Shown here piece after piece: positions 1-24,846 of a stretch of 25,175 nt of DNA. The notes below the pieces were generated by a model. It did no database searches, was not told where the DNA came from, and was given only the letters and a program-made list of their open reading frames with translations. The stretch is from IMG/VR virus record IMGVR_UViG_3300030098_002925, positions 1 through 25,175 of that record, one strand, 5' to 3'. The stretch comes from a virus. How positions within the stretch are numbered: the first letter of the stretch is position 1; each line of letters begins with the position of its first letter. The position numbers were made by a program, and so were the translations under genes.

Positions 1-7
1 GTTTTTT

Positions 8-160
8 ATGACTGACAGGGAAACAAAAATGCTTGTTCCAAACAGCCAGTTGAAGGCGTTGGTGATTGAGAAGAAATTACCGATCAATGGTGGTGCGGAA
101 TATTTGCCGAAAGGAAACGAAAAGGGTGCGATGAAAGTGGAGGTAGTTGAGAGTGAATAG
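8..160 (+). CDS. Small hypothetical protein (50 aa)
   Basis: This is a 50-residue ORF beginning MTDRETKMLV and ending VEVVESE. It is charged, with no membrane segment and no motif I recognise. The start ATG at 8 sits in an ATGA that could also close an upstream gene (TGA 9-11), as at many other junctions here. Its end overlaps the next gene by 8 bases. A second in-frame ATG lies at codon 8 and could be the true start. Coding status rests on the tight packing and coupled junctions; function is unknown. Confidence 0.6.
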   Translation: MTDRETKMLVPNSQLKALVIEKKLPINGGAEYLPKGNEKGAMKVEVVESE

Positions 161-302
161 GACGGACAAGATCACATTAGGTATATTCATTGCGGCACTC
201 ACGTTTATTGTAGTGATGAGTAGTGGGTGCAAGTCGCTACCCGGCAATCTGGAAATAGACACTCCATTTTTTGACATTGAGTATGAAGGTGCAAAGGAAT
301 GA
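153..302 (+). CDS. Small lipoprotein (49 aa), lysis-region candidate
   Basis: The start is GTG at 153, overlapping the previous gene. Residues 1-7 carry N, R, T, D, K, residues 8-22 are hydrophobic, and the sequence MSSGC ends at Cys26, which fits a lipoprotein signal cleaved before Cys26. The mature part would be only about 24 residues and acidic. Small lipoproteins beside holin-like genes in phages are often outer-membrane spanin subunits, so that is one inferred role, but a better o-spanin candidate lies at 828-1031. It ends in an ATGA overlap (299-302) with the next membrane protein, so the two are probably translated together. Confidence 0.7.
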   Translation: MNRTDKITLGIFIAALTFIVVMSSGCKSLPGNLEIDTPFFDIEYEGAKE

Positions 303-448
303 ATTTAGATGATATTAAAGTCGCAATTGCAAGTGTCACAGGACTGGGAAACTGGTTGGTGGACATTGACCTTGTTTTAAAGGTTGGTATTTCGGTTGCG
401 AGTTTAATTTATATCAGTTTGAAGATTAGGGAACTTTTGAGGAAATAA
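299..448 (+). CDS. Small one-pass membrane protein, holin candidate (49 aa)
   Basis: This 49-residue protein has an acidic, polar N-terminus (MNLDDIK), one clear hydrophobic helix at about residues 26-43 (LVLKVGISVASLIYI) and a short basic tail (KIRELLRK). The start is ATG 299, in an ATGA overlap with the lipoprotein gene. The size, single helix and basic C-terminus fit a small phage holin or holin-like accessory protein of the inner membrane. No family signature is decisive, and a virion-assembly membrane protein is possible. Neighbours on both sides are also small membrane-associated or lysis-type proteins. Confidence 0.65.
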   Translation: MNLDDIKVAIASVTGLGNWLVDIDLVLKVGISVASLIYISLKIRELLRK

Positions 449-450
449 TT

Positions 451-552
451 ATGCCACAAGGACGAGGTACATACGGAAGTAAAGTGGGCCGCCCACCGAA
501 AAAGAAATCAGCAACGAAACCCATGCGTTCAGCAAAGAAGAAACGTAAATGA
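451..552 (+). CDS. 33-aa highly basic peptide with GRPPKKK core
   Basis: The ORF starts at ATG 451, two bases after the previous stop, and its TGA (550-552) overlaps the ATG of the next gene (549). The product begins MPQGRGTYGSKVGRPPKKK and ends KKKRK; more than a third of its residues are Lys or Arg. From memory, very similar tiny ORFs recur in marine and freshwater podophage genomes, which supports real coding; this was not checked. The GRP core with flanking basic residues resembles an AT-hook, so DNA binding is a reasonable but unproven inference. Confidence 0.65.
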   Translation: MPQGRGTYGSKVGRPPKKKSATKPMRSAKKKRK

Positions 553-716
553 TTAAATCAAAAACATTCTGGACTGGAGTCACTGGCGTCATTGGTGCGC
601 TGGCTGGCTATCTCACTGGAGAACTGGAACTTGGCGCAGCCGTTAACGTAGGAATTACTTCGGCATTGGCAATTTTTGTCCGCCACGGAATCTCCAAGGT
701 AGAGAAAAGAGTTTGA
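549..716 (+). CDS. Two-helix membrane protein, probable holin (55 aa)
   Basis: The start is ATG 549, inside the stop codon of the basic-peptide gene. The 55 residues contain two hydrophobic segments (about residues 8-23 and 29-45) separated by a short acidic turn (TGELELG), followed by a charged C-terminus (RHGISKVEKRV). Two short helices joined by an acidic loop and a charged tail are typical of class II holins, which form the inner-membrane lesion at lysis. It is followed directly by the i-spanin-like and o-spanin-like genes, a common lysis-cassette order. The assignment rests on topology and context only. Confidence 0.65.
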   Translation: MIKSKTFWTGVTGVIGALAGYLTGELELGAAVNVGITSALAIFVRHGISKVEKRV

Positions 717-1015
717 TGGGGATAGTCAGTGCATTGGTCGCGCTACTCCGAGCCGTTCCGTCCTTGGAGCGGCTTTTTTTAAAAGTACACGACCAACTGC
801 GCGAAGCTAAAGCCCAACGCCGATACAATGAAAAACTGGATAAAATTGATACTGCCATTGCTAATGCTAGGGGCGGTGGGTTGTCAGACAGTAGAGTATC
901 GGGAACTGACTGGAGTCTCGACGTTGACCGAACACCCGCAGTTTCCAGCGGCGGCACAGTCCGCGCCAGAGTGGACGAGGGAAGCGTTGAGGAAAGTGGC
1001 AGAACTGGAGTTTGA
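716..1015 (+). CDS. Rz-like (i-spanin-like) protein, overlapped by lipoprotein gene
   Basis: I place the start at ATG 716 (TGATG junction with the holin-like gene); a TTG one codon upstream at 713 is an alternative. Residues 1-20 are amphipathic to hydrophobic (MGIVSALVALLRAVPSLERL). A charged helical stretch rich in K, R and E follows to about residue 55, then a low-complexity tail. The lipoprotein gene at 828-1031 begins inside this gene in another frame, the classic nested arrangement of Rz/Rz1 spanins. The N-terminal helix is weaker than a standard Rz signal anchor, so membrane association could be peripheral. The last 40-50 residues look unlike real protein and may be under selection mainly for the overlapping frame. 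An intrinsic terminator lies within codons 12-22. Confidence 0.6.
   Translation: MGIVSALVALLRAVPSLERLFLKVHDQLREAKAQRRYNEKLDKIDTAIANARGGGLSDSRVSGTDWSLDVDRTPAVSSGGTVRARVDEGSVEESGRTGV
751..780 (+). terminator. Intrinsic terminator inside the i-spanin-like gene
   Basis: AGCCGTTCC (751-759) pairs with GGAGCGGCT (766-774), nine base pairs with one G-T wobble and a 6-nt loop, followed at once by a run of T (775-780). It is a canonical rho-independent terminator on the + strand, but it lies within coding sequence for the residues around VPSLERLFL. It would reduce transcription between the small lysis genes and the tail genes. It may be coincidental to conserved codons. Confidence 0.6.
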
Positions 1016-1031
1016 GTTGGAGAGGAAATAG
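828..1031 (+). CDS. Rz1-like (o-spanin-like) lipoprotein (67 aa)
   Basis: The ORF starts at ATG 828 inside the i-spanin-like gene and ends in a TAG that overlaps the GTG start of the tail gene at 1031. The N-terminus has a signal peptide (MKNWIKLILPLLMLGAVGC) with two Lys, a hydrophobic core and a lipobox-like AVGC ending at Cys19. The mature part (about 49 residues) contains a Pro/Ala-rich middle (HPQFPAAAQSAPEW) and a C-terminal charged helix (LRKVAELEFELERK). Lipid anchoring, small size and nesting within a coiled-coil partner gene match outer-membrane spanins, which bridge to the inner-membrane partner and fuse membranes at lysis. No clear SD precedes it; translation may depend on the outer gene. 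Confidence 0.7.
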   Translation: MKNWIKLILPLLMLGAVGCQTVEYRELTGVSTLTEHPQFPAAAQSAPEWTREALRKVAELEFELERK

Positions 1032-3834: not shown

Positions 3835-4214
3835 TGAGTTTGTTGGCAAAACCATCTTTTGTGGCGGGGTTAGACGACGTAGCAACAACTACTTCTAGTT
3901 TTGCGTTTTTAACCCAGCCAGTTAGCCGGTATCCAGAATATGGGACAGACACTTCTTTTTCAGCGACAACAAATAAAGATAGTTCTGGCGCAACATACCA
4001 ATGGAAACATTCGTCAACTAGCAATTTTTCTGACGGAGGCACAAATTTTAGTAATGGTGGTGATGTCTCTGGAGCAACTACAACAACATTAAGTTTATCA
4101 AATTTAGACGATACTTATGACGCAAAATATATTCGTTTATACGCTACACATTCTGGAACAACAATTAAGTCTCTTTCTGTTGTGTTAAATGTTTCGTCTG
4201 AAGGTAATAATTAG
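3834..4214 (+). CDS. Small Ig-like virion protein (126 aa)
   Basis: This 126-residue protein from ATG 3834 is Ser/Thr-rich and contains the pattern of an immunoglobulin-like fold: FLTQPVSRYPEYGTDTSFSA, then GATYQWKHS, a TTTLSLSNLDDTYDAKYIRL stretch and a final strand SLSVVLNV. The W in YQW and the LDD...DAKYIRL block match the inner core of Ig-like domains widely attached to phage surface proteins. It ends in TAG, whose last base starts the GTG of the tail fibre. A decoration or tail-tip adhesion role is inferred; no catalytic motif is visible. Confidence 0.6.
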   Translation: MSLLAKPSFVAGLDDVATTTSSFAFLTQPVSRYPEYGTDTSFSATTNKDSSGATYQWKHSSTSNFSDGGTNFSNGGDVSGATTTTLSLSNLDDTYDAKYIRLYATHSGTTIKSLSVVLNVSSEGNN

Positions 4215-6205
4215 TGATTGAAAACAAAGACATAGCACCCGGCGCAGTAACCGAACCGAAGTTATCAAAAAACCTTCGGCTCAAGCTCGCCAATTTAGAG
4301 AAAGGCCAATCCGCCGAAATTCCAATTGTCCAGTCGGACGGGTCTATGGCATACAAGGCTATTGGTGGAGATGCCACTTTGGCCGATGACGGAACGCTAA
4401 CCGTCACAACTACAACCACCACAACTGGTGAAACGGTTCAAGGGCCAGCCGGGCCAGCCGGGCCAGCGGGTGCAACTGGAGCGCAGGGTGCAACTGGCCC
4501 AGCGGGTAGTGACGCAAGCGTGACTGCCGAGAACGTGGATGGTGCGCTTGGATTTACTGGCTCCACCGCTGGATTTGTTAAACGAACTGGCGACAACGCT
4601 TTTGACATAGACACAACCGTTTATGAGTCTGCATTTTCTAAAAACACCGCATTTAATAAAAACTTTGGAACTGCGGCTGGAGATGTATGTCAGGGCAATG
4701 ACAGTCGTTTGTCAGACTCCAGAACTCCTAATGCCCACAAAGCATCACACGCCACTGGTGGTTCAGATGCAATCGCTCCCAGCGACATAGGTGCGGAACC
4801 GGCATTTTCTAAAAACACCGCGCATAATAAGAATTTTGGCAGCACCACTGGAACAGTTTGTGAGGGAGACGACAGCCGGTTGAGCGATGCGCGGACTCCA
4901 GTTTCACATAGTCATGCTGCCAGTGAAATAACGAGTGGAACATTAGCAGATGCGAGAGTGGCACAATCCAACGTCACGCAGCATCAAGCAGCAATTGACC
5001 ACGACCAACTAACAAATTTTAGCGCAGATGAACATCGAGTCATCGACGACACCAGCACGACTGACACAGACAAATTGTGGAGTGCGTACAACATTACCAC
5101 AAACCTAGCACTCTACACTCCACTATCTACCTACTCTGGTCATGGTCACGGACAGTATGCAGTTAAGGCGAACAATTTATCTGACCTTACTAATGCTGGG
5201 ACAGCCAGAACAAACCTTGGACTAGGTACTGCGGCTCAATCTGCAACCGGCGATTTTGCCACCGCTGGACACTCTCACTCAAACGCAACCACAAGCGCGG
5301 ATGGGTTTATGTCCAGCACGGACAAGGACAAGCTGGATGGTGTTGATGACTTTGCAAACCTCTATGTGCTGCCACTTGGAACAAGCACAGTGCGGGGTGG
5401 GTACAAATTAGGATATGCAGAAAACGGCAAAAACTATCCGGTAGAGATTAGCAGTGAACAGATGTATGTGAATGTCCCGTGGACTGACACGCAACTATCC
5501 ACTGAAGAAGTGCAGGACATCGTGGGTGCAATGTTTACCGGCAACACTGAAACCAACATAACTGCAACCTACCAAGACGATGATGGAACTATTGATTTGG
5601 TTGCGTCTGCGGGTAGTGGTAGTGGAACCGTAAATTCTGGAACAGGAGACGAAATGGCATTCTACGCCGCCACTGGAACTGCCGTTTCGGGGACAAGCGC
5701 GTTCACATTTGAAAACACAACCGACGAAGAATTTAACATTGGTAATGGAACCAGCAAAGGGGAACTGGGAATTGCTTGTGGGGTAGGCAGTACATCAAAC
5801 GTGTACCGACTTTATGTAGGTGGTTCAACAAGAGCGAACGCATATTTCGGCACAACCGAAACAACCCCAACACATTTTGTTACACCGGACGCTGGGGATG
5901 GCGCAGCTTGTTTGTATGGACACGGGTATGTGGCACTCAAGTCAATGTCAAGCGAACCTTCAATGGGGGAACACTACGCTGGCATCTACGCGAAGGACGA
6001 CACAAGCAGCACATGGGCGAATTTATGGGCGGTAGGAACAGATGGTTCTGAAACACAAATCTCTCCCCACGATGAAAACGGAGATTGGATATTCCATTCT
6101 ATTGACCGCAAGCGTGGGAAGCGAACCAAGATTAACATGATTGAAGTGATTCGCGCTTTGGAGGAAGTGACAGGGGATCAGTACATATTGGAGGAAAACC
6201 TATGA
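4214..6205 (+). CDS. Tail fibre protein with collagen-like segment (663 aa)
   Basis: The start is GTG 4214. In order: a short N-terminal attachment region (residues 1-60), a Thr run (65-71), a collagen-like stretch of seven or eight Gly-X-Y triplets (77-98), two copies of a 35-residue module containing FSKNTA.NKNFG...DDSRLSD.RTP (138-172 and 195-229), His-rich fibre motifs (SHSHAASEITSGTLADARV, GHSHSNATTSADGFMSSTD), and a C-terminal beta domain with ENTTDEEFNIGNGTSKGELG. The final 35 residues are basic then helical (KRGKRTKINMIEVIRALEE), a usual fibre end rather than a self-cleaving chaperone. Triplet repeats and His motifs imply a trimeric receptor-binding fibre. It is the last of four coupled tail genes; host specificity probably resides in the C-terminal half. 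Confidence 0.85.
   Translation: MIENKDIAPGAVTEPKLSKNLRLKLANLEKGQSAEIPIVQSDGSMAYKAIGGDATLADDGTLTVTTTTTTTGETVQGPAGPAGPAGATGAQGATGPAGSDASVTAENVDGALGFTGSTAGFVKRTGDNAFDIDTTVYESAFSKNTAFNKNFGTAAGDVCQGNDSRLSDSRTPNAHKASHATGGSDAIAPSDIGAEPAFSKNTAHNKNFGSTTGTVCEGDDSRLSDARTPVSHSHAASEITSGTLADARVAQSNVTQHQAAIDHDQLTNFSADEHRVIDDTSTTDTDKLWSAYNITTNLALYTPLSTYSGHGHGQYAVKANNLSDLTNAGTARTNLGLGTAAQSATGDFATAGHSHSNATTSADGFMSSTDKDKLDGVDDFANLYVLPLGTSTVRGGYKLGYAENGKNYPVEISSEQMYVNVPWTDTQLSTEEVQDIVGAMFTGNTETNITATYQDDDGTIDLVASAGSGSGTVNSGTGDEMAFYAATGTAVSGTSAFTFENTTDEEFNIGNGTSKGELGIACGVGSTSNVYRLYVGGSTRANAYFGTTETTPTHFVTPDAGDGAACLYGHGYVALKSMSSEPSMGEHYAGIYAKDDTSSTWANLWAVGTDGSETQISPHDENGDWIFHSIDRKRGKRTKINMIEVIRALEEVTGDQYILEENL
4442..4507 (+). 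repeat. Collagen-like Gly-X-Y repeat in the tail fibre
   Basis: Codons 77-98 of the fibre encode GPAGPAGPAGATGAQGATGP followed by AG. At DNA level there are near-perfect 9-bp iterations of GGGCCAGCC, which makes this spot prone to slippage and length variation. Such triplets in phage fibres act as trimeric spacers. Confidence 0.9.
4625..4900 (+). repeat. Two 35-residue modules in the tail fibre
   Basis: Fibre residues 138-172 and 195-229 are diverged copies sharing AFSKNTA-NKNFG, a GDD/GND-SRLSD motif and RTP. They are separated by a 22-residue linker (NAHKASHATGGSDAIAPSDI then GA). The copies occupy about 4625-4729 and 4796-4900. Similar modules occur in many aquatic phage fibres. Confidence 0.8.
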
Positions 6206-6420
6206 AACCCAAACTCGGCAGAATAATAAAAATCGAAAACGACAACCCCAAGTTTGGCGCGTTGAAGAAATACAGTTTTTTGCGAGTCAAGGACAACTGG
6301 GGAGTGGAGATGAATTTAATGTTTACTGACCGGCAACTGCTGGAAGCGGAAAAACGTGCCGCCAAAAATCCAGAGGACGTAGTGAAGAAGATTAGTTTTA
6401 AGCAGTGGTTTAGAAGTTGA
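6202..6420 (+). CDS. Small hypothetical protein after tail fibre (72 aa)
   Basis: ATG 6202 overlaps the fibre stop (ATGA). The 72-residue product is basic and mixed alpha/beta: MKPKLGRIIKIENDNPKFGA, a YSFLRVKDNWGVEMNLMFTD block with strong beta character, then a charged helix (RQLLEAEKRAAKNPEDVVKK). No signal, membrane segment or known motif is visible. Its position directly behind the fibre, with coupled translation, suggests a fibre-assembly helper or a small virion component, but that is only contextual. Confidence 0.6.
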   Translation: MKPKLGRIIKIENDNPKFGALKKYSFLRVKDNWGVEMNLMFTDRQLLEAEKRAAKNPEDVVKKISFKQWFRS

Positions 6421-6653
6421 TGGAACACGGACACACATTACTGGAGTTGTTATTGGTCGTTGCGATACTGGGTATCGTTTACTCCATGTATGTGTCTGCA
6501 TTGGCAAAAGCAAAAGAGTCTGCACAAAAGGCAATTTGCAAACAGTATCAGTGGGAGTGGCAAAGTTTGAGGGAACTTGAAGACATTCCAAGAATGATAA
6601 AAGTGGCGGACAGATGTTTTAATTGCCACGCAACCGCACCACCTAATTGGTAG
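6420..6653 (+). CDS. Type IV prepilin-like (pseudopilin-like) small protein with CXXCH
   Basis: The start is ATG 6420 in a TGATG junction (TTG 6417 is in frame just upstream). The sequence MEHGHTLLELLLVVAILGIV reads as a class III prepilin signal: a 4-residue leader ending in Gly4, cleavage before His5, Glu at mature position +5 (residue 9), then a hydrophobic helix to about residue 27. The following SALAKAKESAQKAIC is very close to the conserved segment after the helix in pseudopilin-like proteins of Verrucomicrobiota and Lentisphaerae. The remainder is short and ends in CFNCH (residues 66-70) and APPNW. Host prepilin peptidase would be expected to process it. It lies between fibre and internal virion genes. 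The role is unknown: a virion-linked part, a decoy subunit for host pili or secretion systems, or captured host DNA. The +1 residue is His rather than Phe or Met. Confidence 0.7.
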   Translation: MEHGHTLLELLLVVAILGIVYSMYVSALAKAKESAQKAICKQYQWEWQSLRELEDIPRMIKVADRCFNCHATAPPNW

Positions 6654-24235: not shown

Positions 24236-24472
24236 TTATCCGTCTTTGTTGCAGTGGATGTTGAGAAATCTCACAAGTCCGTCCTTGCCTTTGCCGATTT
24301 CGTGTTTGAAAGGGCCGAGCCACCCGTCAAAGTCTTTTTGGTTCCCGTTGGCCCGGTATTTGGCCCTCACTTTGGCTTTGATGCTGGCAACATCGGCCTT
24401 TGATTTGGCCCAATGTCGGGTGAAGTAGGTTTCAGCCTCCATGTCTTTTTGGATGAGTTCGTAAATAATCAT
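24236..24472 (-). CDS. Small hypothetical protein (78 aa)
   Basis: I choose the ATG at 24472, with GGGAGGTGG just upstream as SD and an ATGA overlap with the RlpA-like gene; an in-frame start five codons earlier (24487) exists. The 78 residues start MIIYELIQKDMEAETYFTRH and include a charged helix (KSKADVASIKAKVRAKYRAN) and a KDFDGWLGPFKHEIGKGKDG segment. No signal or membrane helix is visible. It is the last gene of the - strand operon before the terminator. Function is unknown. Confidence 0.65.
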   Translation of the reverse strand: MIIYELIQKDMEAETYFTRHWAKSKADVASIKAKVRAKYRANGNQKDFDGWLGPFKHEIGKGKDGLVRFLNIHCNKDG

Positions 24473-24846
24473 TTCACCACCTCCCATTTTGGCGTGATAA
24501 GCCCGGCCTCCACTTGGGCCAATGCCGCGAAGGTCGCCTTGGAAAGATCAAACTCGCGGCCTTTAATAAATGGCCCACGGTCTGTGACTGTTGCGATAAT
24601 TGTGTTGGGGCCATGCTGGAAACGAACCCTCGTTCCGAAGGGCAACGTGCGATGCGCGACCGTCAAAGCATCTGGATTAAATGGGTTTCCATTCGCCATG
24701 AGCCGCCCCCGGTATTTCTCCCCATACCAAGACACCTTGGATTTTTGCATCTGAGCCTCTTTTGGTGTATGTTGGGTGTATGTGTACCCCTGCGATAATA
24801 AAAAGGCCGTGAGCGCGATTGTGGGGACAAAGAGAGCGTATTTCAT
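24469..24846 (-). CDS. RlpA-like double-psi beta-barrel protein (125 aa)
   Basis: The start is ATG 24846. Residues 1-24 (MKYALFVPTIALTAFLLSQG) are a signal peptide or signal anchor without a lipobox. Residues 36-123 are a clear RlpA domain: SKVSWYGEKYRGRLMANGNP, FNPDALTVAHRTLPFGTRVR, TVTDRGPFIKGREFDLSKAT and LITPKWEVV. Asp89 in TDRGPF is the conserved acidic residue linked to lytic transglycosylase activity in the family. It has no SPOR domain. In a phage this is a candidate peptidoglycan-cleaving enzyme acting in the periplasm, perhaps a signal-arrest type endolysin, which would complete the lysis proteins at 153-1031. It is encoded on the opposite strand, in a separate operon. Confidence 0.85.
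   Translation of the reverse strand: MKYALFVPTIALTAFLLSQGYTYTQHTPKEAQMQKSKVSWYGEKYRGRLMANGNPFNPDALTVAHRTLPFGTRVRFQHGPNTIIATVTDRGPFIKGREFDLSKATFAALAQVEAGLITPKWEVVK

Follow-up and report, generated by a model that had tools for sequence, protein, structure and literature searches.

Phages are known to disable type IV pili through small proteins that act on PilB, PilZ, or PilC (PMC11656802, PMC11436027). These inhibitors, Tip and Aqs1 (PilB), Zip (PilZ), and the Pf4 proteins (PilC), may serve as an analogy for small phage proteins acting on the pilus machine, but they are not pilins and lack a prepilin signal. We know of no pilin mimic among phage anti-pilus proteins. Two PHROG families, phrog_3433 (annotated "pilin") and phrog_13280, are phage encoded and have a prepilin N terminus. 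A globular head is usual in pilins but not universal, as the Geobacter short pilin (geopilin domain 1, 2m7g/9egp) has none; this geopilin lacks both a Cys at mature position +36 and a CxxCH motif. Pilin-type genes number in the tens to hundreds in Verrucomicrobiota genomes, and most have no assigned function.

The stretch of DNA analyzed here (the window) spans an entire IMG/VR virus record, 25,175 bases long, and its gene at 6420-6653 encodes a 77-residue protein that can be set beside each of these systems. Its matches to phrog_3433 (1.2e-5) and phrog_13280 (3.1e-5) are confined to the first ~40 residues, leaving the C-terminal motif outside. Like geopilin, it is headless and essentially an N-terminal helix (profile match at 3e-9), but geopilin is chromosomal and assembles with its own partner genes. 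With the H-X9-DG-type or GspG-like pseudopilins of Verrucomicrobiota it shares a class III signal with a relaxed -1 position, a long hydrophobic N-terminal helix, and an ALxKAxxxAxxxxC block with Cys+36. Those proteins, however, have heads of 250 to 400 residues with a later CP motif, while the phage protein is nearly headless and has a CxxCH end that none of the inspected Verrucomicrobiota host copies shares. The features of the locus are as follows.

6420..6653, + strand: 77-residue minimal prepilin-like protein (P0001); ATG open reading frame, prepilin models, purifying selection
6420..6431, + strand: leader MEHG, with predicted class III cleavage after Gly4; Gly, Ser, or Ala at this position in 15/15 relatives
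6432..6578, + strand: predicted long N-terminal pilin helix, residues 5 to 53 (AlphaFold2 helix 3-53)
6537-6539, + strand: C40, the Verrucomicrobiota-type Cys+36 (from Cys+36 counts among pilins); Glu+5 is E9
6585..6650, + strand: second predicted helix (56-71) and C-terminal CFNCHATAPPNW (AlphaFold2, family alignment)
6615-6629, + strand: CxxCH, residues 66 to 70, invariant in the family alignment
6202..6420, + strand: upstream 72-residue open reading frame, sharing one base with the pilin start (TGATG)
4214..6205, + strand: tail fiber-like protein with a collagen-like stretch, upstream context
1..160, + strand: 3' end of an MscS-beta-domain-like gene, whose homologue lies immediately after the pilin gene in loci L002 and L208

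The encoded protein reads MEHG followed by HTLLELLLVVAILGIVYSMYVSALAKAKESAQKAICKQYQWEWQSLRELEDIPRMIKVADRCFNCHATAPPNW; the leader is short and without net positive charge. The TGA of the upstream frame and the ATG of the pilin gene have one A in common, and the same one-base start/stop overlap occurs in L002 (TAATG) and L208 (TGATG), which form a close subfamily with the window protein (68 to 74% identical). The coupling that a sequence-only reading of this DNA had proposed was thus confirmed, while its placement of the gene between the tail fiber and the genes for internal virion proteins is loosely correct, a 72-residue gene coming before the pilin and a 142-residue gene after it. We looked for a family match to the 72-residue frame and found none, and the 1308-residue virion protein returned no relatives as a single-protein query of IMG/VR. 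Against L002, the closest relative (74% identity), codon-position differences are 20/9/42 and pN is 0.16 versus a pS of 0.86; purifying selection on the gene is strong. A comparable signal and hydrophobic helix arose in 6 of 200,000 shuffles of the protein. Given the prepilin models, the shuffles, the overlap, and pN/pS, we consider the gene real and selected at the protein level, and its coding signature, the curated models, and selection all agree with the gene call made earlier. The protein is short and its close relative L002 lacks Gly at -1, which might suggest a chance hydrophobic protein with a look-alike N terminus, or a host fragment mis-binned as phage. Such an origin is very improbable and is refuted by the shuffles, the selection, 15 relatives, the phage hallmark genes nearby, and the absence of the CxxCH form from every bacterial genome searched.

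The protein passes the curated cutoffs of two prepilin models, PF07963 (N_methyl; 23.3 bits, cutoff 21.2) and TIGR02532 (NCBIfam; 20.8 bits, cutoff 16.3), the check by which its prepilin nature had been proposed to be judged. L002, L089, L161, and L208 fall below the Pfam prepilin cutoff or have no match. We also built a profile from 15 small phage prepilins recovered from IMG/VR (alignment A6), which matched 19 PDB sequences at an E value of ≤0.01, most alignments starting from chain residue 1. Among the matches were PilA 6xxd (2e-9), geopilin 9egp (3e-9), and 5wda (1e-4), with Neisseria-type pilins and GspG near 1e-4. The two curated models, together with a family profile that matches solved type IV pilins from mature residue 1, bear out the prepilin-like reading. 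By contrast, scores against the equivalog models for GspG, GspH, ComGC, PilA, and the Verru_Chthon cassette were far below every whole-protein cutoff. Judged by its sequence, the protein is a member of the pilin superfamily outside its named families. AlphaFold2, run with a first alignment of eight sequences, predicted helices at residues 3-53 and 56-71 (mean pLDDT, 80; pTM, 0.49), the short second helix alone following the N-terminal one with no globular C-terminal head. For the longer relative L098, helix 3-53 was predicted confidently and the C terminus at low confidence. A PDB fold search with the 77-residue model gave nothing significant, only chance helical matches.

The earlier reading was silent on the C terminus, CFNCHATAP, which contains a CxxCH motif. 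Using CxxCHA[ST]AP as a guide motif, we ran a pattern scan followed by profile and pattern scans of IMG/VR, from which the A6 family derives. Its members range from 70 to 125 residues, and eight alignment columns are invariant: T+2, E+5, L+7, A35, C40 (mature +36), C66, C69, and H70. The form C[FY]xCH occurs in 15/15 members, position 67 being Phe or Tyr throughout. Relatives lacking the Gly/Glu motif had been named as evidence that would count against a prepilin; Glu+5 is kept in 15/15, while Gly at -1 is lost in some (Gly 8, Ser 5, Ala 2), including L002, which has Ser at -1, fails the Pfam model, and yet has a C terminus identical to that of the window protein. Leaders vary as well: in L089 (948-1316) and L096 (2644-3018) the cleavage site is preceded by an additional leader that resembles a zinc ribbon (CKYCGC...CPKC), and L048 (8938-9270) has a partial second prepilin motif in its leader (GFSLIELLEGFTLIELLV), as though the signal had been duplicated.

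An invariant CxxCH at the C terminus of all 15 members raises the possibility of a membrane-anchored c-type cytochrome, or another redox or metal protein on a pilin helix, in which CxxCH would bind covalent heme or, with Cys+36, zinc. Near-identical CY[AT]CHA[ST]AP sequences occur in apparent multiheme cytochromes of other bacteria (L103 and L122), and the predicted hairpin (3-53, 56-71) would bring C40 near C66, C69, and H70. However, the A6 alignment has no invariant Met or His as a distal ligand, there is no Pfam cytochrome match, and a cytochrome would not usually carry just one motif, a few residues short of the chain end; we regard this identity as quite improbable. Since residue counting around the turn would have C40 face C66/C69/H70, a disulfide or metal clasp is plausible. 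The Cys+36/CxxCH set may close the helical hairpin (by disulfide or metal) or hold a heme, and one or the other is probably its job. Heme or zinc binding would be compatible with a pilus, lysis, or virion role.

We asked whether the CxxCH form occurs in bacteria. Across 84,980 bacterial and archaeal species genomes, CxxCHA[ST]AP occurred at 28 places, none of them in a pilin; the matches in bacterial genomes were unrelated reading frames or apparent cytochromes. One Verrucomicrobia match, L126, proved on its full contig to lie in an unrelated frame. At 20 Verrucomicrobiota pilin loci inspected, none had CxxCH, and large heads with a later CP motif were found instead. Because it was not found in the bacterial pilins searched, the CxxCH form belongs, on present evidence, to a phage lineage.

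The rest of the protein resembles Verrucomicrobiota pilins, as the sequence-only reading had suggested in assigning it to a Verrucomicrobiota/Lentisphaerae type. We compared best matches in Verrucomicrobiota genome G001, which alone yielded ~90 pilin matches, and in further Verrucomicrobiota genomes with those from seven genomes of other phyla; both sets are samples rather than censuses, from unevenly sampled genomes, and all counts are among the matches listed. Cys at mature +36 was present in 45 of 46 distinct Verrucomicrobiota pilins versus 0 of 36 from other phyla among the matches listed, where the Verrucomicrobiota set comes from top matches to a Cys-containing family profile and so favors Cys-bearing pilins, the 0/36 having been obtained with the same profile. 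Among the matches listed, the window protein scored up to 35.5 bits against Verrucomicrobiota pilins versus 19.1 against those of other phyla, and both contrasts support the assigned type. Neither a large head with a later CP motif nor H-X9-DG is present in the window protein, which ends at residue 77. Position -1 is relaxed in the Verrucomicrobiota pilins (G 13, A 10, S 10, R 6, N 3) and is Gly in 47/57 of those from other phyla, again among the matches listed. The -1 variation of the phage family mirrors that of Verrucomicrobiota pilins, so the prepilin reading is not refuted where relatives have lost Gly. The window phage probably infects Verrucomicrobiota. It carries a tyrosine integrase (PF00589; 13712-14977) between its virion and replication genes, on which basis it is probably temperate. 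As a host clue, this integrase gave one weak match (59 bits) in 289 Verrucomicrobiota and none in 299 Pseudomonadota, which is weakly consistent with a Verrucomicrobiota host.

Gene neighborhoods bear on function. In the window, L002, and L208, a solitary small pilin follows tail genes. In L002 and L208, the genes that come immediately next code for an MscS-beta-domain-like protein, a lipoprotein, and holin-like products. These two loci, a small pilin after a phage lysozyme and a large pilin in L091, and the presence of the same lysis-like cassette in the window (1-1031) might point to a membrane-anchored lysis or egress helper, working with phage MscS-like, holin-like, and spanin-like proteins and using the prepilin signal merely for membrane entry. 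In the window, however, the cassette is at the left end and not beside the pilin gene; a pilin-like frame was found in only 4 of 79 other MscS loci searched (L005-L083), namely, L045/L046 (one pair), L048, and L080; most family members sit beside pilin and GspC-like genes; and strict conservation of Thr+2, Glu+5, and a small -1 residue would be unneeded in a simple anchor. We therefore consider a lysis helper rather unlikely. Mini MscS beta-domain proteins (about 145 to 170 residues) are common in phage contigs in their own right, with 126 confirmed candidates in one IMG/VR scan (e.g., window 1-160, L002 10236-10697, L048 1574-2008, and L208 2016-2525), and in several loci a small lipoprotein gene lies beside them, where a lysis or osmotic role is possible. 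The window lipoprotein frame at 713-1015 (MKNWIKLILPLLMLGAVGC...) and a membrane-protein frame at 828-1031 overlap in different reading frames, like Rz/Rz1 spanins, as do their counterparts in L002 (12476-12922 and 12585-12788). On the opposite strand (-), window 24469-24846 encodes a DPBB_1/RlpA-like lytic transglycosylase (69.4 bits) with a signal-peptide-like N terminus, likely the endolysin of this phage.

The one-base overlap behind tail-fiber genes in the window, L002, and L208, with internal virion genes downstream in the window, might instead indicate a fiber- or baseplate-associated virion component cut by the host prepilin peptidase, e.g., a small appendage of the tail for engaging host pili. 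Late-operon placement fits a lysis or a virion role equally well. But solitary small pilins occur in very different phages, and in L206/L207 a 70-residue one lies among early replication genes. The recurrence of one small pilin across phages this dissimilar suggests a host-directed accessory gene, and we know of no virion protein that uses class III signals; a virion component is accordingly an unlikely identity.

Elsewhere, in L088/L095, L098, L161/L197, L205, L140/L201, L089, L091, and L096, the small pilin stands behind one or two large pilins whose C termini read SWGWYWNDSWGHHPTWKPY or DSWGWYWNHQW; in the latter type, H-X9-DG can be read off the sequence itself (HIDGTALAFADG). The large-pilin C-terminal motif was found in 43 IMG/VR stretches. 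Large pilins with Trp-rich C termini (SWGWYWN...) often come as tandem pairs (L088 12684-14127, L201 8048-9999, L154, L164, and others). A secreted protein with weak GspC/T2SSC similarity adjoins in L048, L088/L095, L098, and L197 and lies a few kilobases off in L201 and L205; the GspC label is tentative, since the matches are weak and the host homologue lies outside any visible secretion operon. In L091, a lysozyme gene and both a large and a small pilin share a single 4.4-kb contig with a terminase that is 41% identical to that of L002; the L002 terminase in turn matches phrog_2 at 8e-26. Together on one contig, these genes indicate that the pilin association is viral. Searches of 50,697 records of sequenced phage isolates gave no match to the window protein, a relative, or a large pilin, and in the partial collection of literature searched we found no paper on phage-encoded pilins of the CxxCH kind. 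The view that phages rarely carry pilins therefore stands for sequenced isolates but not more broadly, as a PHROG "pilin" family exists and the clusters recur in IMG/VR. Both the recurrent phage family ending in CxxCH and its clustering with Verrucomicrobiota-type pilins appear to be new.

We favor, tentatively and at slightly less than even chances, a role as a minimal PVC-type phage pilin that the host prepilin peptidase processes and that either becomes part of a host pilus or secretion pseudopilus or jams it. Lysis help and a virion role are its live rivals; the sequence-only reading had listed blocking of host pili or secretion systems, an envelope anchor for assembly, and a virion part as possible roles. 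The headless CxxCH pilin would be made late and inserted in the inner membrane, the host peptidase would cut it after Gly4, and the mature stub would enter the assembly platform of a type IV pilus or a type II-secretion-like pseudopilus. There it could cap, jam, or repurpose the host fiber as a faulty subunit. The benefit to the phage is the most speculative part: by analogy, interference with or repurposing of the fiber is favored, most plausibly giving superinfection exclusion through changed surface access for rivals, or a late envelope change. Exclusion would rest on analogy with known inhibitors that are not themselves pilins. More broadly, though doubtfully, Verrucomicrobiota phages may carry pilin sets, made up of large pilins, the headless CxxCH form, and a partner resembling GspC, that seize the platform of the host's pilus or type II secretion system during infection, with the CxxCH stub, possibly heme bearing, as the shared and sometimes, as in the window, sole component.

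These results suggest that phages of Verrucomicrobiota, a group about which little is known, tamper with host pilus or secretion machinery. The pared-down form selected in phages, with its one invariant motif at the C terminus, reveals what part of a pilin a phage needs, and the small CxxCH pilin offers a testable handle on the pilin machinery of Verrucomicrobiota. In metagenomes, its C-terminal motif marks phages likely to infect this phylum. If the protein blocks or repurposes host pili, it would be, as far as we know, the first phage anti-pilus protein to mimic a pilin.
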